64,000 bases of DNA from assembly GCA_947561715.1 (NCBI GenBank), contig OX387201.1:15576001-15640000 (forward strand). Direction: 5' to 3'. Of this stretch, positions 13,320 through 60,470 are shown one piece after another. Origin of the DNA: Ascidia mentula (Eukaryota > Chordata > Ascidiacea > Phlebobranchia > Ascidiidae). Position 1 is the first letter of the stretch, and each line of letters opens with the position of its first letter. Position numbers and translations under genes: made by a program. The notes under the pieces were generated by a model. It was not told the origin of the DNA and searched no databases. It was given only the letters and a program-made list of their open reading frames with translations.

Positions 13320-13434
13320 TTAAATGTCAAAGGTCAGTTCCATTATAACGACAAAATAATTCAGTCATATTTGCTTGTAGTTACAGCAAAGCCAAAAAAG
13401 CAGTTGGAACGAATGTGGCGAGTTAGTGTTCATT

Positions 13435-13966
13435 TTACTTGATTTGCATACCTACTGGACAGCAGTAACGAACTTTGTAATCATGACACTGCAAACATCG
13501 TCTATTGAAGGCACAACATTTTACAATGTAAATGGAGATGTCAATGTTCCAAGCGTGCGGGTGCATCTGCTCACCGACCAGAGCCACATCGACGGCGGTC
13601 GGTTTTCTGCAAACTCTTTTGTGCCATCTCTTAGCAATGGTTGCATGAATTTCTCTATCACATCGGTTATCCGGGCGATCAAGGTTAAACCAATCGGTCC
13701 AAGCACCTCCTTCACATTCTACCACAGGTTTTGGTGCTGGTGTAATGTCGCGTTGTACGCACTCTGCACAAAATATAGAGAGTTGTGGGAATTCTCAAAA
13801 AAAACAGATCGAAATGCTATTGAAGTTTTTAAAATTTTTACATTATCTTTTTAGTTTGAAAAACCTAACTATTTATGTACTTACGCGCATTTGCTGCAAT
13901 CACAATCGTCGACACTACGATGAGAGATTTCAACATATTGTCGTCTTTTCTGATAAGACTGAACAT
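13435..13966 (-). CDS. Secreted single-WxxW-domain protein, copy A
   Basis: Exon 1 13966-13885 (82 nt) encodes MFSLIRKDDN plus MLKSLIVVSTIVIAANA, a signal peptide with an AxA-type cleavage site, and ends in phase 1 at GCGC|GTAAG. Exon 2 13763-13435 (329 nt) follows TTTGTGCAG. Total 136 aa. The WxxW motif (AWTDWF) is at residues 49-52, with eleven or so cysteines ending in CLQCHDYKVRYCCPVG, as in the WxxW repeat of mucins and cartilage intermediate layer protein. The function of the domain is unknown; secretion is predicted. Where two-domain paralogues splice at CCA GCA G|GTATGC, this gene reads on through GTATGCAAATCAAG to TAA. Exons are intact and identical to the copy at 54,282-54,813. A TATA box lies 45 bp upstream of the ATG. 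Confidence 0.82.
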
Positions 13967-14009
13967 ATCTAATGTTAGTCAAGTTTAAGAAAATGTGGTT
14001 ATTCCTTCG

Positions 14010-14022
14010 CTTTTATATATAG
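14010..14022 (-). promoter_or_regulatory. TATA box, WxxW gene A
   Basis: Minus strand CTATATATAAAAG, about 45 bp before the ATG at 13,966. The same position is TATA-rich in every WxxW copy. Confidence 0.55.
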
Positions 14023-15780
14023 ATGTTCTCAACGCTTCAAGCGAAGAATGCTTTTACCTTCTGAAAACGTTCCGCGTAAAAGAGACTTGTGGCTTCACCA
14101 TGTATATTAGATAACATCACGAAAATATGTGTTTTCCGAAGACGTTCGTTTGCAGCCGCAATCTTTCGCCCGTGGCGATAACAGCAGTTCGTGTCCGAGT
14201 TCATAGTGCCGTCAGACACTGAACAACAACTGTTGCATATTGAGTTGTGGTTAGAGCTGACTTCCCGTTTGACGTATATATTAATACATTACAGATAAAA
14301 CGATTGCCAGTTTTGTACACGTCGGTGGAGGGTTTTTCGTGAGATACTAAACCTAAGTATCTTAAAACTAAAATAACGCAATTTTTACGTGTTGGTTCAT
14401 TTGGAATTCAATTCAAGTTTAGTTTGCTTTACTTGTTTTTCATCCTGGCTATCTTTTGTCACCTATTTTGCGTTTATCTCTGTGTTTTGTTTCTATATAT
14501 GTGTGCTGTCGTATATTTGTTTGTAAAGGATAATTCTCCTTTTTCTTGCTCATCTTTAGGAAGAGTTTGTTAATTTTGTGCGTCCCTACAACTTAGGTGC
14601 GTGTCCTTTGTAATTTTGCGTTTGACAAATAACTGCTGCACATTCGATGATATATTTAGATCTCTTTAATGCAGAGTATTTCACATTTTGCAAATTAATG
14701 TTTGCTGTCTAGGCGCAGTCTGCCCAGACCAAGTGCAAACGTGACATAGCTCATGTGGTCGAACTAATGGTTGCAGCTATATTTCAACGGTTTGCAGATC
14801 ACGCGTGAATGAGTGCAGTTTTACAACGATCGCCATTTCGCTCGGGACGGGAGTTTCACAAGAGCTAAATCGTTGTTTGATTTCAGTTTTATGAATTCTA
14901 ATTTCTGTTCGGAATTCACGGACAAGGTGTATGAGGACAATAGGCGCTAAAACCACTTAGGCACGGCCTATCGAAATGGGGCTACACTCCAAGCATTCAA
15001 TGTGTGGCGATATTAACAGACTAATAATTTCAGTAAAAACTTTTGACCCATTGTAGAAATAAATTTGTCAAATAAATTACTTTGAACAACAAAATATCAA
15101 ATGATTCCATGTCATTTTGGAAGCATGCCGAAGAGAGTAGGATAATTTATTCCGCTTTTAGAATTTAGAGCATAAACTTAAAATCTGAACTTTGAAAAAA
15201 ATTATAAACATTTTGGGCTCATTATTACTCACAACTTGCAATAATGAACACTAGGTGTTCAAAATACTGACGCAAACATAAAAAGGATCGTCTCATAAAT
15301 GTTTTTATTTCACCATTTTTCCACCTTTTTTATAAAAAAAAAAGGAATTATTTTTGAGAATTGTCCTTATTTTCAAGGACGACATATTTAAAAATATGAG
15401 CGTCTTTATTTCTAAGATTTTTCTTCATTTGTGACTGGACGCTTTTTAGTCATTTTTAATTTTTGATTACTTTTGCCTCAAAAAAGTGCGGTTGAGTACA
15501 GGCGTTTAACCAACGTCATTTCTCTTCAGTTCTCACGCATCACCACAAAAGTTCACGCTGAATGGGTTTGTCAAATAGTGGTATCATTTAATTGCATTCC
15601 TTACAGTCGTCTTATTTTTCGGTTTGAAGGTTCGCTGGCATTGCAGCAAGGGCATTGCAGCCAAGCTGGTTCTGCCACATTTCCCGGCGACTCGAGGGGA
15701 GTTCTAAAAAATTAGGGTTCAGGTATTTTCGGTTTCACGTCGTTGGTAATCCTGCTGAACGTCAAGAAAGACAAAACATT

Positions 15781-18057
15781 TTTTGAGTTTGTAACGCGGT
15801 ACCAAAGCTATATACGCCCAGTGACAGATGATTCCTGGCAATTTCCATTCATCAACAAAGAAACAATAGAAACAAACAGCATCACTTATACGTGATGACA
15901 TTTGATAAAATGGCGGTGTTTTCAACTTCAAACAATTATCAAAAAAGCGCACGAGAAAGGACCGAAATTTATTTTAATAACCAGGTCACCTCAAACGTTA
16001 AAAAGTGGCACTTATATTATTACGAAACCTTTATGTCACAAGCGACCTGAGAAAAGCAGCCTAACGAATTACTACTCGTGGATGCCGTTTAGTGGATAAT
16101 TTTGTTTCCGAGCTAGTCTGTGAATAACAACGATGGGGCGCAACTGAGCTATATCCATGTACAGTTACAGCTGACACCCACCTTATTCAAATAGAATAAA
16201 ATTTTTCTTACCAAGAAAGCATGACTAAGAACCTAATACAAAAATTTTGTTGTCACACAAATCAGAGAGAAAAGTTAGGGATGCACTTACACTAACTTTA
16301 CAAGCTGAAGCAACCGACAAAACACAGGATGGTTTTATACGCTTGAGGAAATACACATAAATTATATTGTGCTCTGTCTGATGCGATGTTATTGAAATCT
16401 AATTGTGGAGTCCTACTACATTTTCTTTCGGCAAAAATAAAAGTAACCTTGGAGCACACTGTGGATAAGTAGTTACATTACAAACCAATATTGTAACCGT
16501 TTAGACGGCAAAACTGTGTGTCGGCAAATTAAACTGTCATGATTTATCATTTACACAAATTTACTTTTGTTTGCTTTATGATTTCTACGTTAAATTAAAA
16601 CAATAAGTCGCAATGAAGGTGCAAACCGTCTCGGGGCCTTTTCACACTAATAAACACAAAGTGGTTTATAATTGTTTTAGGGTTTTTTTCATTTTAGCGG
16701 TTTTTGTGGCCTTGTCTAGTTCTGACACGGGATGATAATAATCTATTGGTGGTACATCGTCTAGTGTTGCGATCGTGAACTTTAGAATAACAAACAAAGT
16801 AGTTTTGTAATACATATCGTCAAGCATTTGCATTGAAGACCGCATATCAGTATTTCTGAACGCCAATCACGTTTAAAATAAAACGACTGTTCTTGAAAAA
16901 ATAACTGACAATTGTCCACGCTGCGTGTTTTACCTCATTTTGTTACATTTTGATACAGACTGTTGCATAGAAACGTTGAAACTTAACAAATATTTTTGCC
17001 AGAAAATTGTTTTTTTCCTTTTCTAAAATTTCTGAAAAAACAAATGCAGTTGGAAAAGTACATAAGTCTGGAATGATGTAGCTGGACTTTATCCTATCCA
17101 CATTACGCAACTCATGAGAAAAAATATATTGGTGATGTCAGTCTCGTGTAACGTGCAACATCAGCAAATATTTGCTCAAACTGTTCATAATTCTTTTTTT
17201 AACAAATATACGTTTATTTACATAATCACTTTTAGTAGTTTGGGAATGTGTTGTGCCTCTTCAATGTAGATTTTGTTTGTTTCTTCGCTAGTTCTTGTTT
17301 TTTGTTCGGTATAATCAGGTAAATGCCAAAAAATACCACAGCATCGCAAAGAAATGAAAATTTATTGTTAAATGCAAATTAAGAAAATTGTCAAAACGAG
17401 TCAACCGTGTGGAACAAAACTTTAGGGGTTTACGAGTTATTTCTTTAGGAAAACAATTTGCTTCAGATCTAAATCCATAAAGCGCTAACTACATCTGGGT
17501 GTCCTGGCAATAAAACACTCCCAACATTACAATCGTGTGATGACCTGAATTTGTCACCAATCGCTCGAACGCATAGTTGTGAAACAGTTTTCTTTACAAA
17601 ACCAAAGTGAACAACAGTCGACCTCTTTGTGCAGGTTTTTCGCCTGCATTTATTTTCTGCGCCGTTTGCCGTTTATTTGTCAATAAAAATTAAAAATAAC
17701 ATTAAAAAAAAGAAACGTCGGCAAAGCGCACGACTTTTTTACCCAGAAGGAAACCCGGTCAGGATTTATGGCCGGGATATCCAGGGTTCATATCCCGGTA
17801 TGGTAAAAAAACTTTAGAAACAAATTTAATGGTTGAAGCATGTGACGAAAAAAACCTAAATAAAGTTTACACAGTGTTTTATCGCGCAAGGTATTGGAAG
17901 GTTGTCACCGTGATGAAATTCGAGATGTATCGTTTGCATCTAATTGCACAAAAACACAAATATTTGCGAAGTGGTTCGTGGCGGCAAAAGTCTATTGCAA
18001 TGATCGCTTTGACATCCGGTGCATCATTATCTGTGGTTTTCAACCTGCAAACAAATA
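15781..18057. other. Spacer of palindrome A
   Basis: About 2.3 kb between the arms, with no gene recognised. Its right part (17,220-18,057) recurs at 56,594-57,420; its left part recurs at 37,170-38,220 and is missing from unit C. It includes the tRNA-related repeat at 17,743. Confidence 0.55.
17743..17806 (+). repeat. tRNA-related repeat with B-box-like end
   Basis: The block ACCCAGAAGGAAACCCGGTCAG, then GGCCGGGATATCCAGGG TTCATATCCCGG, ends like a tRNA T-arm. Sister copies at 39,095-39,165, 45,150-45,220 and 57,100-57,170 read GGGTTCAAATCCC, a good pol III B box. No full cloverleaf can be drawn, so it is called a SINE fragment. Confidence 0.45.
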
Positions 18058-20110
18058 ATGTTTTGGTCATTCTTGACGTTAGACGGGATTACCAACGACA
18101 TGAAACCGAAAATACCTCCAGCCTAATTTTTTAGAACTCGCTCCGACTTGTCGGGAAATGTGACTGATCCAGCTTGGCTGCAATGCCTTTGCAATACCAG
18201 TGAACCTTTTAAACCGTAAAATATGGAAGACTGAAAAGGAATGCATTTAAATGATGCTACAATTTGACAAAACTTTCAGCGTGACCTTTTGTATTGATGC
18301 GTGACAACCAAAGAAAAATGACGTTGATTTAACGCCTGTACTCAACCGCACTTTTTTGAGGAAAAAGTTACTAAAAATTTAAAATGAATAAAAGTGTCCA
18401 CATATAAAGAAATATCTTAGAAATAAAGACGATTATAGTTTTAAATAAGTCGCCCTTTAAAAATAAGGACAAATCTCAGAAATAAATACTCTTTTTAATA
18501 AGTCAAGGTGGAAAAATTGTAAAAATGCAAACCTTGATACGACAAAAAAGTTTCAGATTTTAAGTTTATACTCCATAAGCCAAATAAACTATCTTACCTA
18601 CTTCGGTATGCTACAGATCCAAAATGATATGGAATCATTTAATACTTTTTTGTTCAAAGTAATTAGACAAATTTATTTCTACATTGGGGCAAACGTTTTT
18701 ACTGAAATTATAAGTCTGTTAATATCACCACACATTGAATGCATGACGTGTAGCCCCATTTCGATAGGCCGTGCCTAAGTGGTTTTGGCGCATTTTGTCC
18801 TCATACGCCTTGTCCGCGAATTCCGAACAGAAATTTGTATCCTTAAAACTGAACTTAAACACGTCCCTGCCAATGATTTAGCTCTTGTAAAATTCCCGCC
18901 CCGAGCGACATGGTGATCGTTGTAAAACTGCACAGAACCTGAAAACCGTGGAAATATAGCTGCAAGCATTAGTTTGACCACATGAGCTATGTCACGTTTG
19001 CACTTGGTCTGAGCTGTTTGCGGCTAGAAAGCTTACATCAATTTGCAAAACGTGAAAAACTTAATTTCGTCACCATACTATGCATGGACCAAAATATCAT
19101 CGACCGTGCAGCAGTTATTTGTCAAAAGCACAATTACAAGGCAACACGCACCTAAGTTGTAGGGACATGCAAAATTAACAAACTGTTCCTAAAGGTGAGC
19201 AGAAAAATGCAGAAATAACCTTTACAAACAAATATACCACAACACACAAAAATAGATATAAAACATAGGTGAAAGGTGATGAAAGATAGCTAGGGTAAAG
19301 AACAAGTAAAGCAAACTAAACTTGAATAGAAGGCGAAATAAACCATCACGTAAAAATCGTTAGTATTATTTCAGTGTGCATCGACAAAGCATATAAAAGT
19401 GCATCATTTTAGTTTAAAATAATTGGGTATCTCACGAAAAACCGTCCACAGAAGTGCACAAAATTGGCAGTCGTTTGTTCTGTTATGTATTGATACATAC
19501 GTCAAACGGGAAATCAGCTCCAACCACTACTCAATATGTAGCAGTTGTTGTTCAGTGTTTTACAGCACTATGAACTCGGATACAAACTGCTGTCATCGCC
19601 ACGGGCGAAATATTACCGACTCCAAACGAACGTTTTTGGAAAACACATATTTTCGTGCTGTTATCTAATATACATGGTGAAGCCACAAGTCTCTTTAACG
19701 CGGAACATTTTCAGAAGGTTAAAGCCCTCTTCGCCTTAAGCGTTGAGAACATCTATATATATAAGCAAAGGACTAACCACATTTTATTAAACTTGACTAA
19801 CATTTGATATGTTCAGTCTTATCAGAAAAGACGACAATATGTTGAAAACTCTCATCGTATATAGTGTTGTCGATTTTGATTGCAGCAAATGCGCGTAAGA
19901 AATAATGTAAAAACGTATTAAGCTTTAATGGCATTTCGATCTGTTTTTTGAGAATTCTCACAACTCTCTTTATTTTGTGCAGAGTGCGTAAAGCACGACA
20001 TTAAACCAGCACCAAAACCTATGGTAGAATGTGAAGAAGGTGCTTGGACGGTTTGGTTTAACCTTGATCGCCCGGATAACCACTGTGATAGAGAAATTCA
20101 TACAATGATT
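18058..20110. repeat. Palindrome A, right inverted arm
   Basis: Inverse of 13,400-15,780, ending in the truncated WxxW exon at the GNAT junction. Direct copies are at 39,410-41,455, 57,420-59,550 (with a longer gene) and, as a lone half-arm, 46,550-48,190. Confidence 0.85.
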
Positions 20111-20140
20111 CCATATAACAATACTTTTCCAACAACGTAA
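19809..20140 (+). pseudogene. WxxW gene, frameshifted and truncated (unit A, right arm)
   Basis: The signal exon starts at 19809 (MFSLIRKDDNMLKTLIV) but extra bases after ATCGTA (TATAGTGTTG for GTGTCGACG-type sequence) shift the frame before the donor. Exon 2 starts at 19,983, keeps ECE..AWTVWF and runs to DREIH, then switches at about 20,103 into GNAT intron 3 sequence and stops at TAA 20,138. The second tryptophan is kept, but TDW has become TVW. It has the same breakpoint as the intact-frame copy at 41,160-41,487. Confidence 0.78.
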
Positions 20141-20174
20141 GAGAACGGTGTTTCCATATATTGCTTCCGTTCTG

Positions 20175-20394
20175 ACGAATGGAAATTGCAAGGAAGGATT
20201 GTTTCAAGTATTACTTCGCCATTTGCTCGTCATTCTACACAGCAAAAGCTCTTCAAACCTTGGGAGCAAAATGCATTGTAGAAATTGATTACCGAGATTA
20301 CGTGGATCCAATTACTGGAGAAAAAGTCTTGATAAACTTTAAATCTCCTCATCGATCAGCAAAACTAATATTTGAAATAACATATTTGATTTAA
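20175..20394 (+). pseudogene. GNAT exon 4 fragment fused behind WxxW
   Basis: ACGAATGGAAATTGCAAGG... reproduces GNAT exon 4 to HRSAKL, then a small deletion changes the C-terminus from MCLE-stop to IFEITYLI. The splice acceptor has changed from TTCAG to TTCTG, so the exon could not be joined normally. Exons 1-3 are missing. Confidence 0.75.
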
Positions 20395-21627
20395 CATTGG
20401 CCAATATGCCAGATGCTTTTGTTGCTATAAATCTTTAATATCTGGTACTTAACCGTGGGTACAATCAGTGCAGAAATTCTAAACATTCAAGTAGAGTGGA
20501 GTTGGTTGAATTAGTCGATCCTGTGTCTGGACCAAAGTTACTGAACCAATTCTCATGGTACATTTTACTAACAATAGACAGCCATTTTGTCTTGCAGTAA
20601 ATGTAGCGAGTTGGAAGGTTTTTTTTACTTACTTTGACGTACCCTCATATTTTGAAGGTGCAAACAACAACTCTGTTTCTTGTACTTTTTGTTTGCAGTT
20701 TGTTTCGTTGTATATACAAAAACAGACTGCCGTTAATATTACGGTAATACTATTTTATCATTAGAGCTGTCGCGTGATTCCTTGTCATCAGTGGCGGAAA
20801 TCCGTGTGTTGGAGGGGTTAGAGGGGGAAGTCATGGAATAAAGTAAACAAGTGTGTCCGTTTTACCGAAGGTTTTTCTCTTATTTTTGCCACATTTGTCT
20901 TAAAAAACATAATTTTAGATAGCACAACTCCTTTAGAACTAAGCACAAAACCAATGACAATATTAGGCTGTTGTGTCACATCAATAGACGACTAAGTGGT
21001 CATACTACGACAGAAATGACGACAGACTGTAGCACATACATGAACTCGGCAGCTTGAACAGATATAGCAGCTTGGAGGAATAGTACCCATGTCTGGCGAT
21101 TTCTGTATCAGGCCACTAGCGTATGAATTTCCAGTAGGAATTAACTGTCTTTCGATAACGTTGCTGCCTTTTCTAACCGAGTTCTCCAAATGTTGCTTAG
21201 CATTCCTGAACAACATGGACAACAGTTATAACTCTTGAGTATTGTAATCAAAGAAACTCGAATGTTGGCAACATTCATCTGATTGGTAATACTTCGTTTC
21301 AGTAAGAAGTAGCATATGGCGTATTAAAGTAAAATAGAATGTGTTGGAGAAAGCGATACAGTTGGTCTTGAGAGAGGCCTAAGAACGTGATTGGTTGAAA
21401 CTGGTCACGCATGATCGACACCACGAAGTGTTTTCAGAATGTCTTAACTAGCGTTTCAGCAGTGATGTACACAACGTAATGATACGAGAAAAGCGTGGAA
21501 TATAGAATGTAAGCCAACGGTTACTTTGTACAGGAAATAATAGGTCCACTATTACTTGTTAACATACACGTTAGTGTGAGATGGTGTGCAAATCCCATGA
21601 GGAGATAGGTATTGACCGTTTTTGCAG
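20395..21627. repeat. GNAT 3' flank repeat
   Basis: No firm gene. It is repeated at 25,190-26,475 and 41,730-42,660. It contains a minus-strand open frame, 20,992-21,205, ending in a cysteine-rich stretch (see findings). Confidence 0.5.
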
Positions 21628-21776
21628 AGCTCAGATCACGGTTGTACAACGATATACACGCGAATGGCGTTAACAACACTTATCTTCGCTGCAACTCTCA
21701 CAGAGAGGCAAACCATGAGCTATGTTATATCCCCATCAACCAAAATATTAGGGGGGGCATAGGAATTTCCGTCTAG
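21628..21776 (+). CDS. Unknown terminal exon, copy 1 (partial gene)
   Basis: A likely 3' exon: the acceptor ACCGTTTTTGCAG precedes AG in phase 1, and a 48-codon frame ends GGIGISV then TAG at 21,774. It includes SRLYNDIHANG, RCNSHREAN and CYIP, with two cysteines. The copy at 26,476-26,624 has the same length, acceptor and stop, with only conservative changes such as L/V and I/V, which suggests coding constraint. No upstream exon was found, and the domain is not recognised. Confidence 0.35.
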
Positions 21777-22877
21777 CGTTGTCGTGCATGGCTAATTTTA
21801 GCCAATGCTTTGCTGCCACCCCTACCAGGTTGGTTGAATCGAGTCAATCAACCCCATTTCTGGAGAGCTGGAACAAATTATGACACTACTGGCTGAAGAG
21901 GCATCGACACTCGGGTAAGATTTATATTTTATTTCCGCTGTCATTTTGTTCTTCTGGCCCAGAAAGGAAATATGCGTGTCGTAATAATATAACTTACCTC
22001 GTAACACCTTGTAACAGGTCACAGAGATGCATCTGCTTATTTCAATTTTTAATTCATTTCCAAACCAAATTCACAAAAAAACCTCCTCAAATGATCTCAA
22101 TTATATTGATTTCCTGTTAAAAATTTATTTTGAGACTATTTTGAGATAAACTAACTGATGTAAACCAAGTTGCTAAATTCCTTTTGCGGTGTCTGCTGGA
22201 ATTGTATGTTGTTTTCAGACTAGCTGCGTGTCGAGATTAGCATTCGACGTTGGTCTTATCAACGGTTCCCCGTTCATCACTGTGAAAAACACCTTTTCCA
22301 AAATGAATTTAAAACCCTTCAGCTAAGTCCACTTCTTACCTATGAAGTGTGTATTCCGGTACCAAATCTTTAGAGAGGGAATGCTTCCGAAAAACATACC
22401 AGACGGTTTGTTCGATCCTAGACAAGATTAAATTGAACGAATTAAATCCACAGTTTTGTCACGATTCTATTGAGAAAAGTAAAATGACTTTTTTTCAGAA
22501 ACTCTGTATCGGAATGCTAGAAATGATTTGGTAATAATGTCATAATTATGTGATAGTATCCTTGTTGGTGGTGACGTGTCCAGGGTTTGATTATTTAACA
22601 CTGTTTTGTTGAAGCTAAAACCAGATGTAAAACAAAAACTTTTTAGCTCAAAGGATAGAAGTAAATTGTTTCAACTTTTGTGTTGGACGAAGCGCAATAA
22701 ACTCGCATTCTAAATCAAATAATTTTTTGGTGCAATGGATCCACGAAGGGAATGTTTTAGAATCACGTGATAAACGCTGTTGACGTTATTATAAAAAGTT
22801 TATCAAAAATTGAAAGGTCATTTCAAAAAATATTGATTTTATGATCACAATAGAACAATGTCTTTAGAGTCACACCA
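21777..22877. other. No gene recognised
   Basis: AT-rich sequence. The first about 100 bases continue the duplicated flank also found at 26,625-26,730. The rest shows no conserved exon. Confidence 0.4.
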
Positions 22878-23760: not shown

Positions 23761-23921
23761 GGCAATTTACAGAGGCAAATGTTTAATCTAATGTTTGCTT
23801 TCAACTTAACCTTGCACTTAATGCAAACAATACAGGGTTATGCAACGTATGTCGTAATAGGAAGCACATGAACTAGCACTAACGGTTCACAAATACAGAT
23901 GATTGGCGGATAGCTTGCAGT

Positions 23922-25184
23922 ATGAATGAGAACTTCCTTGTCTTGCCGAAATCAGGCAATTCAATTTGTTGGAGGTTCACTACAGATGAAGACCTTCCAG
24001 AGATATGCAGAATACTAGCGAATGATTTTTTCCCAAATGAACCAATCACTGAAGCATTGGAATATACTGAAAACGACATTTCGCTGGAAGTTAGTGTAAC
24101 AAAGGTGGTTATTTGTCAACTTCAAGTATTTTGTACCAAAGATGGTTATGAGCGAAAGTAGATTTAATAACGTGTTTCCATTTTCTAATGCGATAGCCAC
24201 TTGCATAATAGATGCATCTGACACTTTTATTCACCAATTCCAGTGGACTTTAATAGGAATGAAATACTATCACATGGCATCCGGCTTTGTGTTGACATTG
24301 TTAAATCAGCAACAGAAACGCTGGTCCACCTGGAGACGAGGATAGAGTAAATAATTGTATAATTTAGAAAAAAAAGGCTTTAACAACCGAAAGCTCGTAT
24401 ATGCTATTGCTTTGCAACACTACCTTGATTTTTTTGCATTTCGATCCTAAATTTGTTTCATGCGTCTAATTCGTATCTAAATATTTGAACACAGAAATAC
24501 TTCCTGAAAAGTCCGGCAATTTGTGCATACGATGAAATTAGCAAGGAAATATGCGGTGTGTGCATCGTTCAAGATCAAGATGGTGATAAACCAAAGGAAC
24601 AGTTACCATTAAAGTTGTCGCAAAATTTGGCGGTAAGATTGTGTTCTTGTCATGGGTTGATGTCGAGTGATTTACGTAGAATATGAAATTGCTGCAGCGA
24701 ATGGTTAATGTACATGTTTAGTTTCTGCATTCGTTTGAAATTAATGTGAAATTATACGCCGGAGAGCTGCCATATATCACTGGGATTGCGATGTGCGTAA
24801 AGAAAAAGTATCGGAAACAGGGAATTGCTGGGGCGTTGTACAAGAAGTGAGTTTTAAAGTAAAAAATTTGTGGGTAAATCTTTTCAAATATGTGCGTTCA
24901 GTTACGTGACCATATAACAAAACTTTTCCAACAACGTAAGAGAAACACGTTGTTTCCATATATTGCTTCCGTTCAGGCGAATGGAAATTGCAAGGAAGGA
25001 TGGTTTCAAGTATTACTTCGCCATTTGCTCGTCATTCTACACAGCAAAAGCTCTTCAAACCTTGGGTGCAAAATGCATTGTAGAAATTGATTACCGAGAT
25101 TACGTGGATCCAATTACTGGAAAAAAAGTATTAAAAAACTTTAAATCTCCTCATCGTTCAGCAAAACTAATGTGTCTGGAATAA
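23922..25184 (+). CDS. GNAT-family N-acetyltransferase, intact, 4 exons
   Basis: Exons 23922-24104 (183 nt), 24495-24632 (138), 24722-24846 (125), 24977-25184 (208) give 217 aa with no stops. Donors GTGGTT, GTAAGA and GTGAGT; acceptors AACACAG, GTTTAG and GTTCAG; phases 0, 0, 2. Exon 1 has the first strand and helix (ICWRFTTDEDLPEICRIL, FFPNEPI), a pattern like arylalkylamine/dopamine N-acetyltransferases. Exon 2 gives the central strand CGVCIVQDQDG. Exon 3 has the acetyl-CoA loop RKQGIA at residues 138-143, matching (R/Q)xxGx(G/A), after IAMCV. Exon 4 has the C-terminal FYTAKALQTLGAKC helix and ends KLMCLE. It is probably cytosolic, since no signal peptide is seen. The acyl acceptor is unknown. 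Splice positions are shared with the minus-strand gene at 62,383-63,675. Confidence 0.85.
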
Positions 25185-26475: not shown

Positions 26476-26624
26476 AGCACAGCTCTCGGTTGTACAACGA
26501 TATACACGCGAATGGCGTTAACAACACTTATGTTCGCTGCAACTCTCACAGAGAGGCAAACCATGAGGTATGTTATATTCCCGTCAACCAAAATATTAGG
26601 GGGACCATAGGAATTTCCGTCTAG
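26476..26624 (+). CDS. Unknown terminal exon, copy 2 (partial gene)
   Basis: Paralogue of 21,628-21,776: the same GTTTTTGCAG acceptor, the same 149-nt length, frame HSSRLYNDIHANG...RCNSHREAN...GISV and TAG. In this copy the frame also opens upstream to an ATG at 26,424. The partner exons and function are unknown. Confidence 0.35.
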
Positions 26625-46522: not shown

Positions 46523-46549
46523 CTAATCACTTTGTTTATAATAATTTTT

Positions 46550-47685: not shown

Positions 47686-49127
47686 ATGTTCAGTCTTATC
47701 AGAAACGACAATATGTTGAAATCTCTCATCGTAGTGTCGACGATTGTGATTGCAGCAAATGCGCGTAAGTACATAAATAGTTGCACTGAAATCCTAAAAA
47801 TTGAACTTCCGGCAATACAGTAGTGTATATTTTGTTTTATGGCAAATACTAAGTGCAATCACTCTCAACGACTAAATTTGAAAAATAAATACAACTCAAA
47901 ACAAAATTGTTAGTTTGCAAATGTGATTCTGCTGTGCGCTACAAAACTTTCTGAAGGTGGATGCATGGGTTACTCAATGGTGTCCTGATAAAAACTGTGC
48001 ACCAAGGTAAAAATTGTATCCTTGGGCATGATATGTTTATTCAAGACGTTTCATAACAATTCACGCATCATCAGTTTACTAAATTGACATGGCTGTCCTA
48101 CTTCCACGGTTATTTAAAGGTGATCTAGATGACGTCACAAATCACCTATACGTAGTTCTCATATTTTTATAACATTCTTTGTTCAGAGTGCTTGTATGGT
48201 CGCGTAAAACCAGCACCAAAACCGGAAGTTAAATGTGAAGAAGGTGGTTGGACCGATTGGTTTGATCTCGACGATCCATCGGATGACAATTGTGACATTG
48301 AAACACTCGGCGCCATTCATGAGGCTTTCCCGGGAAAAGTTTGCGAGAATCCGACCGCCGTCGATGTGGCTTTGGTCGGTACGCAGATGCATTCGTACGT
48401 TTGGAACATCTACATCTCCATTTCACTTGTGCAATGCTGCTCTTCAAATCAGGTCTTTAATGGTCGGTGTTTGCGGTGCCACGATTACAAAGTTCGCTAC
48501 TGTTGTCCAGCAGGTATGCAAGTCAACTAAATATTTAATAGTTAATGAATCGTTCCAATTACTTTCTTACTGCTTTTTGCTTTGTACTGTGAGTAACTAC
48601 AACTTTGTCTGGTTATACACCTACGCACAGTATATTGTGCTCGTCATAGGGTAAACGAAGTATTGAATTAAACCATATTAACCTATTTTGAAAATCTTGT
48701 GTTGCGCTTGTTGTTCTATGACTCAATCCACTTTTCTGTATTTACTTTCAAAAAAGTGATCGGCGAGTGCAAGAACAGAACCAAATTTGTCCACGCCTAC
48801 TGGACACCGTGGTACGATGTAGACGACCCGTCGACCCATCCACCGATATACGACGACGACGAAACCGTGAACAACATCCAGAAAAGGATGCAATTCAAAA
48901 TGTGCAAGCCGAGATCAGCCATCGAGGCTCGCCTTACCAACGGCTTGCCTTACATTAACGGGGGAAACACCTTCGTCGTGTTGAACCCCACGGATGGGTT
49001 GTTGTGTAAATCTATTGGGCAGGAATGCCAAGATTACCAAGTGCGGTTTTGCTGTAGGAAGTGGGTTCTTCCATCGCTTGAAGTATTGAATCACGAAAAT
49101 CTCGGTCCGAACCCAGGCGGGAAGTAA
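47686..49127 (+). CDS. Secreted two-domain WxxW protein, copy 1
   Basis: Exons 47686-47764, 48187-48513 and 48757-49127, all phase 1, give 258 aa. Exon 1 is the family signal peptide (MFSLIRNDN, MLKSLIVVSTIVIAANA). Exon 2 is WxxW domain 1 (GGWTDWFDLDDPS at about residue 47; end CHDYKVRYCCPAG). The donor CAG|GTATGC is used here, whereas single-domain paralogues read through it. Exon 3 starts after TTTCAAAAAAG and gives domain 2 (AYWTPWYDVDDPS at about 150; RSAIEARLTNGLPYINGG; CQDYQVRFCC), then the tail LGPNPGGK. The acceptor is purine-rich, but codon phase and the conserved paralogue support it. Intron 1 holds a PLE-like tail hairpin at 48,030-48,080. Function unknown; secreted. Confidence 0.82.
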
Positions 49128-49960: not shown

Positions 49961-49964
49961 GCCA

Positions 49965-51411: not shown

Positions 51412-51945
51412 ATGTCCTACAACATTCCTGTCTTGGCAAAATCAGGCAATGAAATTTGTTGGAGGTTTGCTACAATGGAAGACCATCTAGAGATATGCAG
51501 AATACTTGCGAATGTTTTTTTCCCAAATAAACCAATCTGTGAGGCAATGGAATATGCTGAAAACGACACTTCTATGGAAGTTAGTTTAACAAATATTTGT
51601 ATTAATGAGTCAAAGTGGATTTAAATATTTTTTATGTAATACCCAGTTGCACAATAAAGGGCCTGTTGCAATTATTTACCAATTTCAATGGATTTTAACG
51701 TAAGTGAAATGCAATAACTAGATTTGTGTTGACATTGGTTAATTAGTGATAATGATCCTAGTCCGCTTGGAGCTGAGGGCAATGTAATTCGTCATACAAT
51801 TTCATACAATTTCAACACATTTGTAATACTCCTGTCTACCATTTCTTAAAGATATTACCTCATGTTTTTGTATTGCAATCTTCAAGACGCCCGTTTCGCA
51901 CCTAAATATTGCAATAAATTGTTACTGATGCTGCCAGGCATATTT

Positions 51946-52914
51946 TATTGCTTAATACTGCTCTTCTGGCAAACTTTATTGTATTTACGTTTCTCGACGT
52001 TTCGGCTGTTATGCAGCAGCCTTCATCAGGAGGAAGTATCTAAGTTTAGCACAGCGGACACATTTGAGGCACATAAACAAAAACGCTACAAAAGAAAGAA
52101 GAAGTGAAACAACGAAAAAGCGATAAGGGCGAACACACCTGCACAGTATACTTATCACTAACCGCACGTTTTTGTCACGGTTTTTGGAGTGCGTAATGTC
52201 TATCGGCATTATTTTTCTCTAGCAAACGCCTGCTTGGCGACTTCAATATTCAGGTTTTTGAACGTCCGGTCGTCACCCTGCGTTCCTTAATATCGCACCC
52301 AAAAGACCGCATGCACGACAAGCTCGACACGAGGGGTGTGGTCTACAGTATTCCCTGCGGTGGTTGCAGCGGCGTATACATTGGTGAAACTGGCCGTGCG
52401 CCAAGAACAAGGTTAAAAGAGCACCAAAGGGACGTGAGAAACCATGAGGATAAAACGGCTCTTTCTTAACATGCGGCCGAATCAGGACATGCGGTGGACT
52501 TTACGAGAACGATCATTTTGGAACGCGATTCCGACAGGTACAAGAGGATGTTTTTAGAGTCGTTAAACATCAATACGCATGCGTTATCACTCAATGACAA
52601 GAAACAAACTCTGTTTCCACCGGTGTACCGACACTTGCTAGAGAAAAATTATGCCGATACACATTACGCACTCCAAAAACCGTGACAAAAACGTGCGGTT
52701 AGTGATAAGTATACTGTGCAGGTGTGTTCGCCCTTATCGCTTTTTCGTTGTTTCACTTCTTCTTTCTTTTGTAGCGTTTTTGTTTATGTGCCTCAAATGT
52801 GTCCGCTGTGCTAAACTTAGATACTTCCTCCTGATGAAGGCTGTTGCATAATAGCCTAAACGTCGAGAAACGTAAATACAATAAAGTTTGCCAGAAGAGC
52901 AGTATTAAGCAATA
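51946..52914 (+). mobile_element. PLE with inverted ends, duplicate copy
   Basis: Base-for-base counterpart of 11,084-12,052, with the same inverted arms and TAAATATTGCAATA target duplication (51,903 and 52,913). Its GIY-YIG frame (52,311-52,685) is interrupted by TAA where the other copy has CAA. Confidence 0.75.
52311..52685 (+). pseudogene. GIY-YIG domain with nonsense mutation
   Basis: Same frame as 11,449-11,823, with a stop in the SQHA motif (CTTTCTTAACAT). The GVYIGETGR core is kept. Confidence 0.7.
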
Positions 52915-53496
52915 AATATTGCAATACAGAAATACTTTCTAAAAATTCCGGTACTTTGTGCAAACGATGAATCCACCAAGGAAATTTGCGGTGTGTGGAT
53001 CGTTCGGGGTCAAGACGGTGATAAACCGAAGAAGGATCTACCTGTAAAAGTGATGCAGTCTTTGGCGGTGAGGTTTTATTTTTGTCATTGTTTAATGTGG
53101 AACGATCTACTCAGCATAAAATGATCCAGAATTGCACGGTTTATGTTTTAGTTTGTACGTTCGTTTGAAGTTGGTGTCCAAACACACGCCGGACAGTTTC
53201 CGTACCTCATGGGAGCTGGGATGTGTGTGAAAAAAGAGTTTTAGAAACGTGGAATTGCCAGAGCGTTGTTCAGGAAGTAAGTTTAAAGATTTAAACATGT
53301 CATTAAAACTTTCCAAATTTCTGCGTGCTGTTTCGTGTCGTTGTAACAATGCTTGGTTCTCAAAATTAATGCATTTATGTAGGCAAAAATTCGTTGTTTC
53401 CTATATTGCGTCCTTGCAGACGAATGGAAATTGCCAGGAAGGATGGATTCAAGTATTACTTTCTCCTAGTTCAGCAAAATTAATATGTCTCGAATA

Positions 53497-54160
53497 ATTG
53501 TGATTAATTTCTTTAAATTGATTTACAAATCTTTTGTTTTGATCGATAGAATGGTTTAAGACATATTACAAATTTATCAATATAAAACGTGTTGCTTTGC
53601 TTTCTATGGTGCGTTATTTCGCAGGAAAACAGTCGGCTTTGCATATTAGAGCCGAGGGTTAATTTCAAATCCAAACCAACAGCGATTGTAAAGAATTATA
53701 GGCGCATTTTTGTTTCGCAATAAATCGGATAATATAGTTTCACAACATATATTTACATGAATAACCATGGATCCTCCCATCAACCTCAAGGTCATATTAT
53801 GTAGCTGTTTTCTTTTCACTGCCAACTATGTTATTCTATTGGCACAAATATAGTAATTGTTAAATTGGTATGTACAGTTTTTGTCATTGACTTCTTTGAA
53901 CTACCTTTAGTGAGGTCAAAACCCGAACAAATAATAAAAAAGATTTAAAAATTGCACCCTATTTCGTGTTTGCCAGCGCACAGATTTATTTCGCTTTGTT
54001 GTCAAGAAACTTTAATACGGATACGGAAAAAACACACTTCTTTCTTGAAATTTTAATGACGTGATTGCTATTATACGAAAGCAATGAAGTATGCAGTAAA
54101 ACAATTATTATTTTTTGATTCCAGAGGTAAACATATGTGTTTGAAAGCAATGGTTTGGCA
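53497..54160. other. Spacer between GNAT and WxxW copies
   Basis: Duplicate of 12,630-13,313, with a 25-base deletion near 54,035. No exon. Confidence 0.5.
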
Positions 54161-54166
54161 TTTATT
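54161..54166 (-). terminator. Polyadenylation signal of WxxW gene C
   Basis: AATAAA on the minus strand, the counterpart of 13,314. Confidence 0.55.
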
Positions 54167-54239
54167 TTAAATGTCAAAGGTCAGTTCCATTATAACGACA
54201 AAATAATTCAGTCATATTTGCTTGTAGTTACAGCAAAGC

Positions 54240-56600
54240 CAAAAAAGCAGTTGGAACGAATGTGGCGAGTTAGTGTTCATTTTACTTGATTTGCATACCT
54301 ACTGGACAGCAGTAACGAACTTTGTAATCATGACACTGCAAACATCGTCTATTGAAGGCACAACATTTTACAATGTAAATGGAGATGTCAATGTTCCAAG
54401 CGTGCGGGTGCATCTGCTCACCGACCAGAGCCACATCGACGGCGGTCGGTTTTCTGCAAACTCTTTTGTGCCATCTCTTAGCAATGGTTGCATGAATTTC
54501 TCTATCACATCGGTTATCCGGGCGATCAAGGTTAAACCAATCGGTCCAAGCACCTCCTTCACATTCTACCACAGGTTTTGGTGCTGGTGTAATGTCGCGT
54601 TGTACGCACTCTGCACAAAATATAGAGAGTTGTGGGAATTCTCAAAAAAAACAGATCGAAATGCTATTGAAGTTTTTAAAATTTTTACATTATCTTTTTA
54701 GTTTGAAAAACCTAACTATTTATGTACTTACGCGCATTTGCTGCAATCACAATCGTCGACACTACGATGAGAGATTTCAACATATTGTCGTCTTTTCTGA
54801 TAAGACTGAACATATCTAATGTTAGTCAAGTTTAAGAAAATGTGGTTATTCCTTCGCTTTTATATATAGATGTTCTCAACGCTTCAGACGAAGAGTGCTG
54901 TTACCTTCTGAAAACGTTCCGCGTAAAAGAGACTTGTGGCTTAACCATGTATATTAGATAACATCACGAAAATATGTGTTTTCCGAAGACGTTCGTTTGC
55001 AGCCTCAATCTTTCGCCCGTGGCGATAACAGCAGTTCGTGTCCGAGTTCATAGTGCCGTCAGACACTGAACAACAACTGTTGCATATTGAGTTGTGGTTA
55101 GAGCTGACTTCCCGTTTGACGTATATATTAATACATTACAGATAAAACGATTGCCATTTTTGTACACGTCGGTGGAGGGTTTTTCGTGAGATACTAAACC
55201 TAAGTATCTTAAAACTAAAATAACGCAATTTTTACGTGTTGGTTCATTTGGAATTCAATTCAAGTTTAGTTTGCTTTACTTGTTTTTCATCCTGGCTATC
55301 TTTTATCACCTATTTTGCGTTTATCTCTGTGTTTTGTTTCTATATGTGTGTGCTGTCGTATATTTGTTTGTAAAGGATAATTCTCCTTTTTCTTGCTCAT
55401 CTTTAGGAAGAGTTTGTTAATTTTGTGCGTCCCTACAACTTAGGTGCGTGTCCTTTGTAATTTTGCGTTTGACAAATAACTGCTGCACATTCGATGACAT
55501 TTTGATCTCTTTAATGCAGAGTATTTCACATTTTGCAAATTAATGTTTGCTGTCTAGGCGCAGTCTGCCCAGACCAAGTGCAAACGTGACATAGCTCATG
55601 TGGTCGAACTAATGCTTGCAGCTATGTTTCAACGGTTTGCAGGTCACGCGTGAATGAGTGCAGTTTTACAACGATCACCATTTCGCTCGGGACGGGAGTT
55701 TTACAAGAGCTAAATCGTTGTTTGATTTCAGTTTTATGAATTCTAATTTCTGTTCGGAATTCACGGACAAGGTGTATGAGGACAATAGGCGCTAAAACCG
55801 CTTCTTCCTATTGACATGGGGTTACACTCCATGCATTCAATGTGTGGTGATATTAACAGACTAATAATTTCAGTAAAAACTTTTGACCCATTGTAGAAAT
55901 AAATTTGTCAAATAAATTACTTTGAACAACAAAATATCAAAAGATTTTATGTCATTTTGGAACTGCAGCATGCCGAAGTAAGCAGGATAATTTATACCGC
56001 TTTTAGGATTTAGAGCATAAACTTAAAATCTGAACTTTGAAAAAAATTATAAACATTTTGGGCTCATTATTACTCACAACTTGCAATAATGAACACTAGG
56101 TGTTCAAAATACTGACGCAAACATAAAAAGGATCGTCTCATAAATGTTTTTATTTCACCATTTTTCCACGTTTTTTATCAAAAAAAAGGAATTATTTTTG
56201 AGAATTGTCCTTATTTTCAAGGACGACATATTTAAAAATATGAGCGTCTTTATTTCTAAGATTTTTCTTCATTTGTGACTGGACGCTTTTTAGTCATTTT
56301 TAATTTTTAATTACTTTTGCCTCAAAAAAGTTCGGTTGAGTACAGGCGTTTAACCAATGTCATTTCTCTTCAGTTCTCACGCATCACCACAAAAGTTCAC
56401 GCTGAATGGTTTGTCAAATAGTGGTATCATTTAATTGCATTCCTTACAGTCGTCTTATTTTTCGGTTTGAAGGTTCGCTTGTATTGTAGCAAAGGCATTG
56501 CAGCCAAGATGGATCAGCCACATTTCCCGACAAGTCGGAGCGAGATCTGAAAAATTAAGCTCCAGGTATTTTTGGTTTCACGTCGTTGGTAATCACTTTC
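54240..56600. repeat. Palindrome C, left inverted arm
   Basis: Near-identical direct copy of 13,400-15,780 and inverse of 57,420-59,550. Confidence 0.85.
54282..54813 (-). CDS. Secreted single-WxxW-domain protein, copy C
   Basis: Exon 1 54813-54732 and exon 2 54610-54282, 136 aa, the same translation as copy A (13,435-13,966) across both exons, including CVQRDITPAP and the WTDWF motif at residues 49-53. Intron and splice sites are also the same. The identity across the gene and about 5 kb of flank points to a recent duplication or gene conversion rather than selection alone. Confidence 0.82.
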
Positions 56601-57419
56601 AGTAGTTTGGGAATGTGTTGTGCCTCTTCAATGTAGATTTTATTTGTTTCTTCATTAGTTCTTGTTTTTTGTTCGTTTTTTTGTTAAAAAAAAATACCAC
56701 AGCATCGCAAAGAAATTCAAATTTATTGTTAAATGCAAATTAAGAAAATTGTCAAAACGAGTCAACCGTGTGGAACAAAACTTTAGGGGTTTACGAGTTA
56801 TTTCTTTAGGAAAACAATTTGCTTCAGATCTAAATCCATACAGCGCTAACTACATCTGGGTGTCCTGGCAATAAAACACTCCCAACATTACAATCGTGTG
56901 ATGACCTGAATTTGTCACCAATCGCTCGAACGCATAGTTGTGAAACAGTTTTCTTTACAAAACCAAAGTGAACAACAGTCGACCTCTTTGTGCAGGTTTC
57001 TCGCCTGCATTTATTTTCTGCGGCGTTTGCCGTTTATTTGTCAATAAAAATTAAAAATAACATTAAAAAAAAGAAACGTCGGCAAAGCGCACGACTTTTT
57101 TACGCAGAAGGAAACCCGGTCAGGATTTGTGGCCGGAATATCCAGGGTTCAAATCCCGGTATGGTAAAAAAACTTTAGAAACAAATTTAATGGTTGAAGC
57201 ATGTGACGAAAAAAACGTAAATAAAGTTTACACAGTGTTTTATCGCGCAAGGTATTGGAAGGTTGTCACCGTGATGAAATTCGAGATGTATCGTTAGCAT
57301 CTAATTGCACAAAAACACAAATATTTGCGAAGTGGTTCGTGGCGGCAAAAGTCTATTGCAATGATTGCTTTGATATCCGGTGCATCATTATCTGTGGTTT
57401 TCAACCTGCAAACAAATAA
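56601..57419. other. Short spacer of palindrome C
   Basis: Only about 0.8 kb. Matches 17,224-18,057; the segment equivalent to 15,752-17,223 is missing. It includes the tRNA-related block at 57,100-57,170. No gene. Confidence 0.55.
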
Positions 57420-59550
57420 TGTTTTGGTCATTCTTGACGTTAGACGGGATTACCAACGACATGAAACCGAAAATACCTCCAGCCTAGTTTTTTAGAACTC
57501 GCTCCGACTTGTCGGGAAATGTGACTGATCCAGCTTGGCTGCAATGCCTTTGCAATACCAGTGAACCTTTTAAACCGTAAAATATGGAAGACTGAAAAGG
57601 AATGCATTTAAATGATGCTACAATTTGACAAAACTTTCAGCGTGACCTTTTGTATTGATGCGTGACAACCAAAGAAAAATGACGTTGATTTAACCCTTGT
57701 ACTCAACCGCACTTTTTTGAGGAAAAAGTTACTAAAAATTAAAAATGAATAAAAGTGTCCACATATAAAGAAATATCTTAGAAATAAAGACGCTCATAGT
57801 TTTAACCCTTTGAAAATAAGGACAAATCTCAGAAATAAATACTCTATTTAATAAGTCAAGGTGGAAAAACTGTAAAAATGCAAACCTTGATAAGACAAAA
57901 AAGTTTCAGATTTTAAGTTTATACTCTATAAGCCAAATAAACTATCCTACCTACTTCGGTATGCAACAGATCCAAAATGATATGGAATCATTTAATACTT
58001 TTTTGTTCAAAGTAATTCGACAAATTTATTTCTACATTGGGGCAAACGTTTTAACTGAAATTATAAGTCTGTTAATATTACCACACATTGAATGCATGAA
58101 GTGCAGCCCATTTCGATAGGCCGTGCCTAAGTGGTTCTAGCGCATTTTATCCTCATACGCCTTGTCCGCGAATTCCGAACAGAAATTTGTATCCTTAAAA
58201 CTGAACTCAAACACGTCCCGGCCAACGATTTAGCTCTTGTAAAATTCCCGCCCCGAGCGACATGGTGATCGTTGTAAAACTGCACAGAACGTGCGTGACC
58301 TGAAAACCGTGGAAATATAGCTGCAAGCATTAGTTTGACCACATGAGCCATGTCACGTTTGCACTTGGTCTGAGCTGTTTGCGGCTAGAAAGCTTACATC
58401 AATTTGCAAAACGTGAAAAACTTAATTTCGTCACCATACTATGCATGGACCAAAATAACATCGAACGTGCAGCAGTTATTTGTCAAAAGCACAATTACAA
58501 GGCAACACGCACCTAAGTTGTAGGGACATGCAAAATCAACAAACTCTTCATAAAGGTGAGCAGGAAAATGCAGAAATAACCTTCACAAACAAATTTACGA
58601 CAACACACATATATAAAAAACAAAACACAGAGATAAACGCAACAAAGGTGATGAAAGATAACTAGGATAAAGAACAAGTGAAGCAACTAAACTTGAATTG
58701 AATTCCATATAAACCATCACGTAAAAATCGTTAGTATTATTTCAGTGTGCATCGACAAAGCATATAAAAGTGCATCATTTTAGTTTAAAATAATTGGGTA
58801 TCTCACGAAAAACTGTCCACAGAAGTGTACGAAATTGGCAGTCGTTTGTTCTGTTATGTATTGATATATACGTCAAACGGGAAGTCAGCTCTAACCACAA
58901 CTCAATATGTAGAAGTTGTAGCAGTTGTTGTCCACAGTTTGACAACACTATGAACTCGGACACAAACTGCTGTTATCGCCATGGGCGACTCCAAACGAAC
59001 GTTTTCCTGCGGTTATCTCGTCTTTAAGTCTCCGAAAGGCGGAACGTTTTCAGAAGGTCAAGCACTCTTCGCCTTAAGCGTTCAGAACATCTATTTATAT
59101 ATAAGCGAAGGAATAACCACATTTTCTTAAGCTTGACTAACATTTGATATGTTCAGTCTTTTGAGAATATACGACAATATGTTGAAATCTCTCATCGTAG
59201 TGTCGACGATTGTGATTGCAGCAAATGCGCGTAAGTACATATATAGTTGCTCTGAAAACCTTATAATTAATCTTCCTACACAACAGTATGTGTCGATGAA
59301 AATACAGTATGTGTATATTTTGTTTTATGGCAAATAAAAATGCAATTACTCTCAACGACTAAATTTGTAAAGTAAATACAAATCGAAACAAAATTGTTAG
59401 TTTGCCAATGTGATGAAAACTGTGTACCAAGGTAAAACTTGTATTCTGGGACTTTATTTGTTTATTCAAGACATTTCGCTACAATTCACGCATCATCAGT
59501 TTACTAAATTGACATAACATTTTTTGTTCAGAGTGCTTGGATGACCGCGT
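57420..59550. repeat. Palindrome C, right inverted arm
   Basis: Copy of 18,058-19,808, continuing into an intact two-domain WxxW gene instead of the truncated exon. Confidence 0.8.
59096..59104 (+). promoter_or_regulatory. TATA box, two-domain WxxW gene 2
   Basis: TATATATAA about 45 bp before the ATG at 59,149. Confidence 0.55.
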
Positions 59551-60470
59551 AAGACCAGCATCCAAACCGCGAGTTGAATGTGAAAAAGGGGGTTGGACCG
59601 ATTGGTTTGATCTCGACGATCCATCGAGTGACTATTGTGACATTGAAACTCTCGGCGCCATTCATGGGGCTTTCCCGGGAAAAGTTTGCAAAAATCCGAC
59701 CGCCGTCGATGTGGGTTTGGTCGGTCCGCTGCTACATCCGTACGTTTGGAACATCTACATCTCCATTCCACTTGTGCAATGCTGCTCTTCAAATCATGTC
59801 TTTAATGGTCGGTGTTGGCGGTGCCACGATTACAAAGTTCGCTACTGTTGTCCAGCAGGTATGCAAAAAATGTAAACATTAAATAGTTAATGAATTGTTC
59901 CAATTTCTCTGGCTACTTTTTGCTTTGTATTGTGAAATACTGTAAATTTGTCTGGCTATGTAACTACGTACAGTGTATTGTGTCAGTCATAGGATAATCA
60001 AGGAATTGAAACCGGGTATTAGCCTATTTTGTAATAAAATTTTGTTGCGCTTGTTTTTCTATAACTTAATCCACTTATCTGTATTTACTTTTAAAAAAGT
60101 GATCGGCGAGTGCAAGAACAGAACTATATTTGACCACGCCTACTGGACACCGTGGTACGATGTAGACGACCCGTCGACCCCACCACCGATATACGACGAC
60201 GACGAAACCGTGAACAACATCCAGATAAACATGGAATTCAAAATGTGCAAGCCGAGATCAGCCATCGAGGCTCGCCTTACTAACGGCTTGCCTTACATTC
60301 ATGGGGGAAACACCTTCGTCGTGTTAAACCCCACGGATGGGTTATTGTGTAAATCTATTGAGCAGAAATGCCAAGATTACAAAGTGCGGTTTTGCTGTAG
60401 AAGAGGAGTTCTTCCACCATTTGACGTATTGACTCACCAAAGTCTCGGTCCGAACCCAGGCGGGAAGTAA
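59149..60470 (+). CDS. Secreted two-domain WxxW protein, copy 2
   Basis: Exons 59149-59230, 59532-59858 and 60100-60470, phase 1 throughout, give 259 aa. Signal peptide MFSLLRIYDN, MLKSLIVVSTIVIAANA; domain 1 GGWTDWFDLDDPS (W49/W52) to CHDYKVRYCCPAG; domain 2 AYWTPWYDVDDPS (W152/W155) with RSAIEARLTNGLPY and CQDYKVRFCC; tail LGPNPGGK as in copy 1. Donors GTAAGT and GTATGC; acceptors TTGTTCAG and TTTTAAAAAAG. Substitutions against copy 1 are scattered and no frame is broken, which suggests both are constrained. A PLE-like hairpin sits in intron 1 at 59,465-59,515. AATAAA is 12 bases past the stop. Confidence 0.85.

Follow-up and report, generated by a model that had tools for sequence, protein, structure and literature searches.

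Do the arms of a palindrome that carries genes diversify those genes by pairing with each other, or is the palindrome the by-product of some other history? The question is raised by a 64,000-bp stretch of the genome of the ascidian Ascidia mentula (195.8 Mb, 79 contigs), positions 15,576,001-15,640,000 of contig OX387201.1 (C69). This stretch, here called the window, has no N bases and contains three palindromes (units 1, 2 and 3), each with a left arm (L) and an inverted right arm (R) that bear genes of the WxxW type. An original prediction, made from the DNA letters, held that such palindromes favour gene conversion, hairpin rearrangement and copy-number change and could thereby diversify a family of secreted proteins. 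We find that the window holds a cluster of small CysD (WxxW) genes, part intact and part broken. The best reading of the cluster, to which we give a probability of about 0.7, is that a head-to-head gene pair was duplicated as a block and that a 5' module, comprising upstream region, TATA-like box and signal exon, was exchanged between gene copies.

Palindromes and CysD genes of the window

Comparison of the window with itself by blastn gives inverted diagonals at all three predicted places, with the predicted spacers of ~2.3, 2.2 and 0.8 kb for units 1, 2 and 3; ten dinucleotide-preserving shuffles of the window gave no off-diagonal self-matches at the same E-value. The inverted matches are, in unit 1, 13,641-15,193 with 18,547-20,105 and 15,308-15,785 with 18,052-18,524 (80-82% identity); in unit 2, 35,068-35,655 with 40,888-41,452, 35,663-36,573 with 39,899-40,825, and 36,674-37,168 with 39,404-39,894 (80-86%); and, in unit 3, 54,714-56,038 with 57,900-59,248 and 56,135-56,594 with 57,448-57,896 (79-81%), the left WxxW exon of unit 3 having 69% identity to 59,519-59,876. 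The same comparison bears out the prediction that the units are direct copies of one another, at 87-97% identity: 10,838-15,751 matches 51,700-56,594 at 96.7%, 17,649-21,272 matches 39,010-42,663 at 91.1%, 12,916-16,234 matches 34,359-37,623 at 89.8%, and, lowest of the copies cited, 39,010-41,246 matches 57,010-59,235 at 86.8%.

The WxxW domain is Pfam PF13330 (Mucin2_WxxW, the mucin CysD domain). All seven intact exons of the window, which lie in genes L1, L2, L3, H and R3, score above the curated cut-off of 22.4 bits and have both the W-x-x-W motif and the end cysteines; six score 31.5-60.8 bits (L1, 31.5 bits; L2, 33.8 bits) and the seventh, H exon 3, scores 57.7 bits. In a PDB sequence comparison R3 exon 3 matches the CysD domain of human MUC5AC (8ov0; E 1.7e-6). 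Our gene models are readings of the DNA, in which each gene is predicted to consist of a 52-bp signal exon (MLKSLIVVSTIVIAANA), its signal peptide judged by eye, followed by WxxW exons, a single one in the L-type and two in the H-type, the introns being of phase 1. Beyond the signal exon the predicted genes hold no more than one or two CysD exons, no search having been aimed at PTS (proline-threonine-serine) or von Willebrand D parts. The proteins are probably secreted CysD units of mucus or extracellular matrix. In each pair the start codons lie head to head, ~4.4-5.9 kb apart. The prediction that a WxxW gene reads outward from every arm holds for four of the six arms (L1, L2, L3 and R3), which have an intact exon; R1 and R2 are cut at one shared point, the WxxW exon ending after ~39 residues, near 20,105 and 41,452, and being followed by the 3' part of an acetyltransferase-like gene.

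The gene body forms the outer part of an arm only, and the bulk of the arm is gene upstream region and signal exon. The part of the arm that precedes the signal exon, ~1.7 kb long, we read as non-coding, because the translated pieces seen (part of the translations; no Pfam search was made there) have stops or frame changes between copies. The same upstream region occurs, in pieces, at seven unpaired copies: H, within the window, and six others at C69 15.033, 15.040, 15.077, 15.655, 15.672 and 15.721 Mb (E033, E040, E077, E655, E672 and E720), all on the minus strand and within 0.6 Mb. Most copies, though not E040, have another in-frame ATG ten codons farther upstream. What had been taken for a lone half-arm at 46.5-48.2 kb is indeed arm-like sequence before an outward gene; it is part of the one unpaired gene H, whose upstream likeness begins at 45,059 and is split by ~0.9 kb of non-arm DNA. 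Since six unpaired, same-strand WxxW genes have the same upstream region, we conclude that a palindrome is unnecessary for growth of the family. The neighbourhood examined was 264 kb (the window plus 200 kb), and an upstream fragment lies at C69:15,641,109-15,641,976, where no WxxW exon was found. This fragment and the WxxW copy M (Table 1) have no matching signal exon and do not appear in any tree. A whole-genome DNA search (40 of 1,027 candidates scored, 72 matches listed) found arm sequence, among the matches listed, only in this C69 cluster, barring a dispersed repeat at approximately positions 60-170 of the arm.

WxxW domains also occur elsewhere in the genome. A second divergent inverted WxxW pair, with five domains per side, lies at C2:17,523,287-17,532,137; three aligned pieces of it are 82-95% alike, and it has only one 28-base match to the arms in the window. 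At C72:5.94-5.99 Mb there is an array of WxxW domains in which sets of identical scores recur, some ~16 kb apart, which suggests recent large direct duplications.

A 5' module and the gene bodies it precedes

That upstream region and gene body can have separate histories is seen in R3. R3 is clearly a chimera, with an R-type 5' module on an H-type two-domain body, joined at the signal exon. In trees, the upstream region of R3 groups with R1 and R2 (support 98/98), and exon 2 of R3 groups with H and the E copies (100/100). On upstream data, placing R3 among the H-types carries a penalty of 17.6 log units (approximately unbiased [AU] test, p 0.011); on exon 2, the penalty for placing R3 beside R1 and R2 is 59.3 log units (AU p 8e-35). 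Along the sequence, R-type sites dominate as far as 59,132 and H-type sites take over at 59,188, each side having isolated exceptions; since R1 and R2 may have acquired new letters at the first two H-type sites, the junction is bracketed at 59,133-59,235. R1, in turn, is a mosaic. Its inner kilobase is R3-like (110 of 123 sites in 57.0-58.0 kb on the R3 scale), the next half kilobase is mixed, and its outer part is R2-like (57 of 64 sites in 58.5-59.2 kb on the same scale). We conclude that exchange is clear in two cases: R1 with other right arms, and R3 with an H-type gene.

In comparisons between L-type and H-type genes, likeness is much greater in the 5' module than in the bodies. The 52-bp signal exon occurs at 12 genomic places at ≤3 mismatches, 7 of them exact and all in the C69 cluster, and among seven copies of both types none of the 13.3 synonymous sites differs in any pair; in exon 2, synonymous divergence (dS) between L- and H-types is 0.70-1.12. 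In 20-base bins comparing L1 and L2 with five H-type copies (H, E672, E720, E040 and E077; R3, L3, E033 and E655 left out), identity is 0.74-0.99 over the fifteen bins that run from -300 up to the ATG, 0.96-1.00 over the next four, which end at +79, and 0.42-0.45 from +100, the +80 bin being without data. The identity cliff between gene types falls inside intron 1, for which mean identity is 0.571 between types and 0.765 within H-types. Farther upstream, E033, E040, E077 and E672 show, in pieces, a likeness of 73-85% to the distal arm. E672 shows the conflict within a single gene: its upstream region is 83-87% identical to L and R copies but 72-75% identical to E720, E040 and E077, and its exon 2 is 78-82% identical to those three H-type copies but 68-69% identical to L1 and L2.

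These observations bear on the possibility that purifying selection alone, acting on promoter and signal exon, accounts for the 5' likeness, the R3 event being the sole exchange. The signal exon does exceed its flanks in conservation, and departures from it are seen in R1, R2 and E033, which are broken or truncated, and also in E655 and E672. However, likeness extends across 300 bp upstream and, at a lower level, farther still, beside a strongly diverged exon 2; the cliff lies inside an intron; and the upstream and exon 2 affinities of E672 conflict. We therefore regard selection alone as an unlikely explanation. A more specific proposal, which we put forward tentatively and hold at less than even odds, is that upstream region and signal exon may constitute a recombination cassette, with its 3' junction at the signal exon/intron 1 start, that moves between CysD genes. 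If so, head-to-head cassette arrays would be a stock that places new secreted bodies under one promoter.

As to the bodies themselves, L3 exon 2 equals L1 exon 2, with zero changes over the codons compared. The ratio of nonsynonymous to synonymous divergence (dN/dS) is 0.25-0.42 in 21 L/H pairs and 0.27-1.62 in 21 H-type pairs, nominally exceeding 1 in 10 of the latter 21; R1, R2 and E033, which have a truncated or frame-broken exon 2, are left out. We make no claim of positive selection on the mature part.

Arms compared within and between palindromes

Conversion between the arms of a palindrome would make the arms of one unit resemble each other, and the original prediction had proposed a comparison of arm-to-arm with unit-to-unit identity. 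In a seven-row alignment the two arms of a palindrome share 84.9% identity in unit 1, 86.9% in unit 2 and 80.0% in unit 3, whereas same-side arms of different units are 92.6% (L1-L2), 97.3% (L1-L3), 93.3% (L2-L3), 95.6% (R1-R2), 89.3% (R1-R3) and 87.1% (R2-R3) identical. Same-side identity (87-97%) therefore exceeds identity across arms (80-87%), with one ambiguous tract, in L2. Counts of two-way sites in four-row alignments of units 1-2, 1-3 and 2-3 agree: 2, 0 and 6 sites unite the arms of one unit, exactly as many as in the crossed control (2, 0 and 6), and 149, 191 and 121 sites unite same-side arms. In the arm tree L and R are separate groups (support 100/99 and 100/100), and over whole arms the groupings L1+R1, L2+R2 and L3+R3 are each rejected by AU tests (p 8e-66, 4e-10 and 1e-38). 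A palindrome maintained by conversion is thus not what we observe, the arms of one palindrome being, over whole arms, less alike than their copies in other palindromes. The arms are not near-identical; among the 25 longest of 112 inverted pairs, it is retroelement pieces that are flanked by the most perfect repeats (98-99% identity). We conclude that two-way arm conversion has left no mark since the units were copied and that, since left and right genes evolved apart across three copies, the pair is older than the block copying.

The two-way site count is blind to one-way tracts. For these we scored the letter that an arm carries at sites where its same-side mates share one letter and the other side agrees on another. 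Opposite-arm letters are found at 9 of 155 sites in L1, 3 of 148 in L3 and 55 of 204 in L2, and at 25 of 178 in R1, 38 of 191 in R2 and 31 of 143 in R3. For L2 the mates, L1 and L3, are almost copies of one another, and new letters that these two share are therefore scored as opposite-arm letters in L2; the same applies to R3 with R1 and R2. Most opposite-arm sites of L2 (35 of 55) fall in columns 1800-2399, corresponding to ~35.5-36.0 kb of the window (35,500-36,040). In 100-column steps this tract is 71-93% identical to L1/L3, with 71-92% to L1 alone, 78-93% to R1/R2 and, where H aligns, 81-93% to H, and, because R1, R2 and H are about equally close, a donor, if there was one, is not clearly the tract's own partner. 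That palindrome arms pair in cis, convert each other and so drive diversification is a proposal with two things in its favour, the presence of inverted arms around spacers of 0.8-2.3 kb and the L2 tract. The equality of two-way sites with the crossed control, the whole-arm rejections in all three units, the scarcity of opposite-arm letters in L1 and L3, and the failure of the L2 tract to single out its own partner make it, in our judgement, very improbable. Recombination does mix the family, as had been predicted; pairing of palindrome arms receives little support as its driver.

Assembly error is an even less promising source of the palindromes: divergence is 13-20% between the arms of a unit and 3-13% between same-side arms, larger than we expect for haplotype or error copies, and the units vary in the length of the spacer and in the set of genes that is truncated. 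Least credible of all is that the arms are terminal inverted repeats of a gene-carrying mobile element, since, although inverted arms do surround a spacer in several copies, arm DNA lies solely in the WxxW cluster among the matches listed, at paired and unpaired genes alike, the unpaired genes carry one arm, and the arms are diverged gene upstream regions.

Block duplication with exchange of the 5' module between gene copies would account for the locus as follows. Two CysD genes lying head to head form an old pair, the arms being mostly the upstream regions and first exons of two paralogues. The pair was copied as a block to give three units, in which the left and right genes have diverged. 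Exchange between gene copies, by unequal crossing over or by conversion in short tracts, would have ended in the near-identical signal exon, so that the 5' module may pass from gene to gene and differing mature proteins may retain one promoter and one secretion signal.

Several points weigh against this account. In the arms, L2 is nearer to R2 (84-93%) than to L1 (78-90%) in columns 2000-2400, and 27 of 41 one-way sites in columns 2000-2399 are R-like; the tract is ambiguous, both an old one-way exchange and a change in the L1/L3 ancestor fitting it. The opposite-arm letters of R1, R2 and R3 are, in our tentative reading, shared ancestral letters. In the upstream tree the H-types other than R3 stand on one side of a branch (weak support, 71/82), and because they stand together, L/H-type exchange beyond R3 rests on identity contrasts and not on the tree. 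Three H-type copies (E033, E077 and E655) have long upstream branches, and the AU p value for the upstream region of R3 is no lower than 0.011. Selection acts too, as the conservation of the signal exon beyond its flanks and the departure of truncated or broken copies indicate, and some of the 5' likeness could be due to selection acting on promoter and signal exon. Finally, exon use and secretion are predicted from sequence.

Neighbouring features and known systems

The features of the window are collected in Table 1.

Table 1. Palindrome units, WxxW genes and adjoining features, in window positions
Feature	Position	Strand	Description
M, WxxW copy	3,465-4,004	+	WxxW exon 3,532-3,849 with in-frame stop; little upstream remaining
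L1 gene	13,435-13,936	-	Predicted; signal exon 13,885-13,936; WxxW exon 13,435-13,763 open to stop; AATAAA ~115 bp beyond
Unit 1 left arm	13,937-15,785	-	L1 upstream, read as non-coding; TATA-like box ~85 bp before ATG
Unit 1 spacer	15,786-18,051		Right ~400 bp like sequence upstream of unpaired copies
Unit 1 right arm	18,052-20,105	+	Upstream, disrupted signal exon (ATG 19,839), truncated R1 WxxW exon
Acetyltransferase-like 3' part and downstream, after truncated R1	20,111-21,883	+	90% to 24,910-26,731
L2 gene	34,862-35,360	-	Signal exon and intact WxxW exon
Unit 2 left arm	35,361-37,168	-	L2 upstream; ambiguous one-way tract at 35.5-36.0 kb
Unit 2 spacer	37,169-39,402		From self-blastn
Unit 2 right arm	39,403-41,452	+	Upstream, signal exon (ATG 41,190), truncated R2 WxxW exon; junction as in R1
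H, unpaired two-domain WxxW gene	45,059-49,127	+	ATG 47,713; WxxW exons 48,187-48,513 and ~48,757-49,127
H upstream interruption by other DNA	45,607-46,540
L3 gene	54,282-54,783	-	Signal exon and intact WxxW exon
Unit 3 left arm	54,784-56,594	-	L3 upstream region
Unit 3 short spacer	56,595-57,412		96.6% to 17,228-18,051; without the rest of the unit 1 spacer
Unit 3 right arm	57,413-59,178	+	R-type upstream of R3; inner edge set by comparing unit 3 with the other units
R3 chimera junction	59,133-59,235	+	Spans start codon and signal exon
R3 gene	59,179-60,470	+	Signal exon 59,179-59,230; TATA-like box ~85 bp before ATG; WxxW exons 59,532-59,858 and 60,100-60,470; AATAAA just past stop

Scattered among the WxxW genes, on both strands, are acetyltransferase-like genes and fragments (5,549-6,516; 23,884-25,231; 31,926-33,028; 61,715-63,691). 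We call them acetyltransferase-like on the strength of a GNAT motif, and one exon matches Pfam acetyltransferases below the cut-off. The inverted repeats of 98-99% identity, among the 25 pairs listed, flank frames that are GIY-YIG-like and reverse-transcriptase-like, at 11,082-12,054, 51,944-52,916 and 27,589-29,490; the first two occupy corresponding sites in units 1 and 3 and have exon-like pieces of an acetyltransferase-like gene on either side. By their motifs these retroelement pieces are presumably Penelope-like; no family was assigned to them by Pfam. At 30,612-31,276 a pair of direct 300-bp repeats with tRNA-Thr calls lies beside a dispersed repeat that is also present in the arms and is perhaps a tRNA-derived short interspersed element. 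A zinc knuckle frame followed by a frame that matches aspartyl protease, at 8,176-9,505, is probably the remnant of a long-terminal-repeat retroelement.

The arrangement as a whole is of a known kind, combining block-copied head-to-head pairs with 5' conservation; what is new is the mapped junction of module and body in a CysD family. It provides a mapped case of a promoter-signal-exon module and a mature body having different histories in a mucin-domain family, and a test bed for how secreted-protein families swap bodies while retaining expression and secretion. No paper on such a WxxW gene cluster surfaced in literature searches, judged by title and start of abstract, which does not prove that none is in print.

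The Hessian fly SSSGP-1 cluster of small secreted-protein genes has one inverted and six tandem copies, and short-tract homogenization has been proposed for it, with gene regions differing in affinity (PMC2955719). As there, promoter and signal-peptide region are conserved here and the mature part has diverged (PMC2955719). Unlike SSSGP-1, the genes here show no intron conservation between types and have a CysD domain as their mature part, the pairs are head to head and block-copied, and positive selection is not claimed. The pea aphid KQY and KHI cassette families likewise combine a conserved signal-peptide coding region with divergent mature parts, their bodies being built from miniature exons where ours are CysD domains (PMC7495047). 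The 5'-5' pairs of mammalian Abp genes multiplied as pairs, by duplication and not conversion according to the authors (PMC2291036); here too 5'-5' pairs share a unit history, from which outer R1, the R3 body and the L2 tract deviate. Abp partners are of two kinds (Abpa and Abpbg), whereas here the partners share an upstream region, and each pair is therefore a palindrome. With SSSGP-1, Abp and the aphid families the likeness is one of pattern only, and we do not propose that the genes described here are effectors.

CysD domains have a role in mucus gels, and the same domain occurs in Oikosin1, described as consecutive CYS domains without mucin regions (PMC6861317; PMC4431476); Oikosin1 has 13 domains, in contrast to the one or two here. 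Palindromes have been surveyed in parthenogenetic animals (PMC7953838), and, like those of the Y chromosome, Adineta vaga and Folsomia candida, the palindromes described here have inverted gene-bearing arms on one chromosome (PMC7953838). Clear signs of arm-to-arm conversion, by contrast, are missing here. A palindrome and conversion between its arms are easily conflated, but a palindrome can be chiefly what a pair of genes lying head to head leaves behind.

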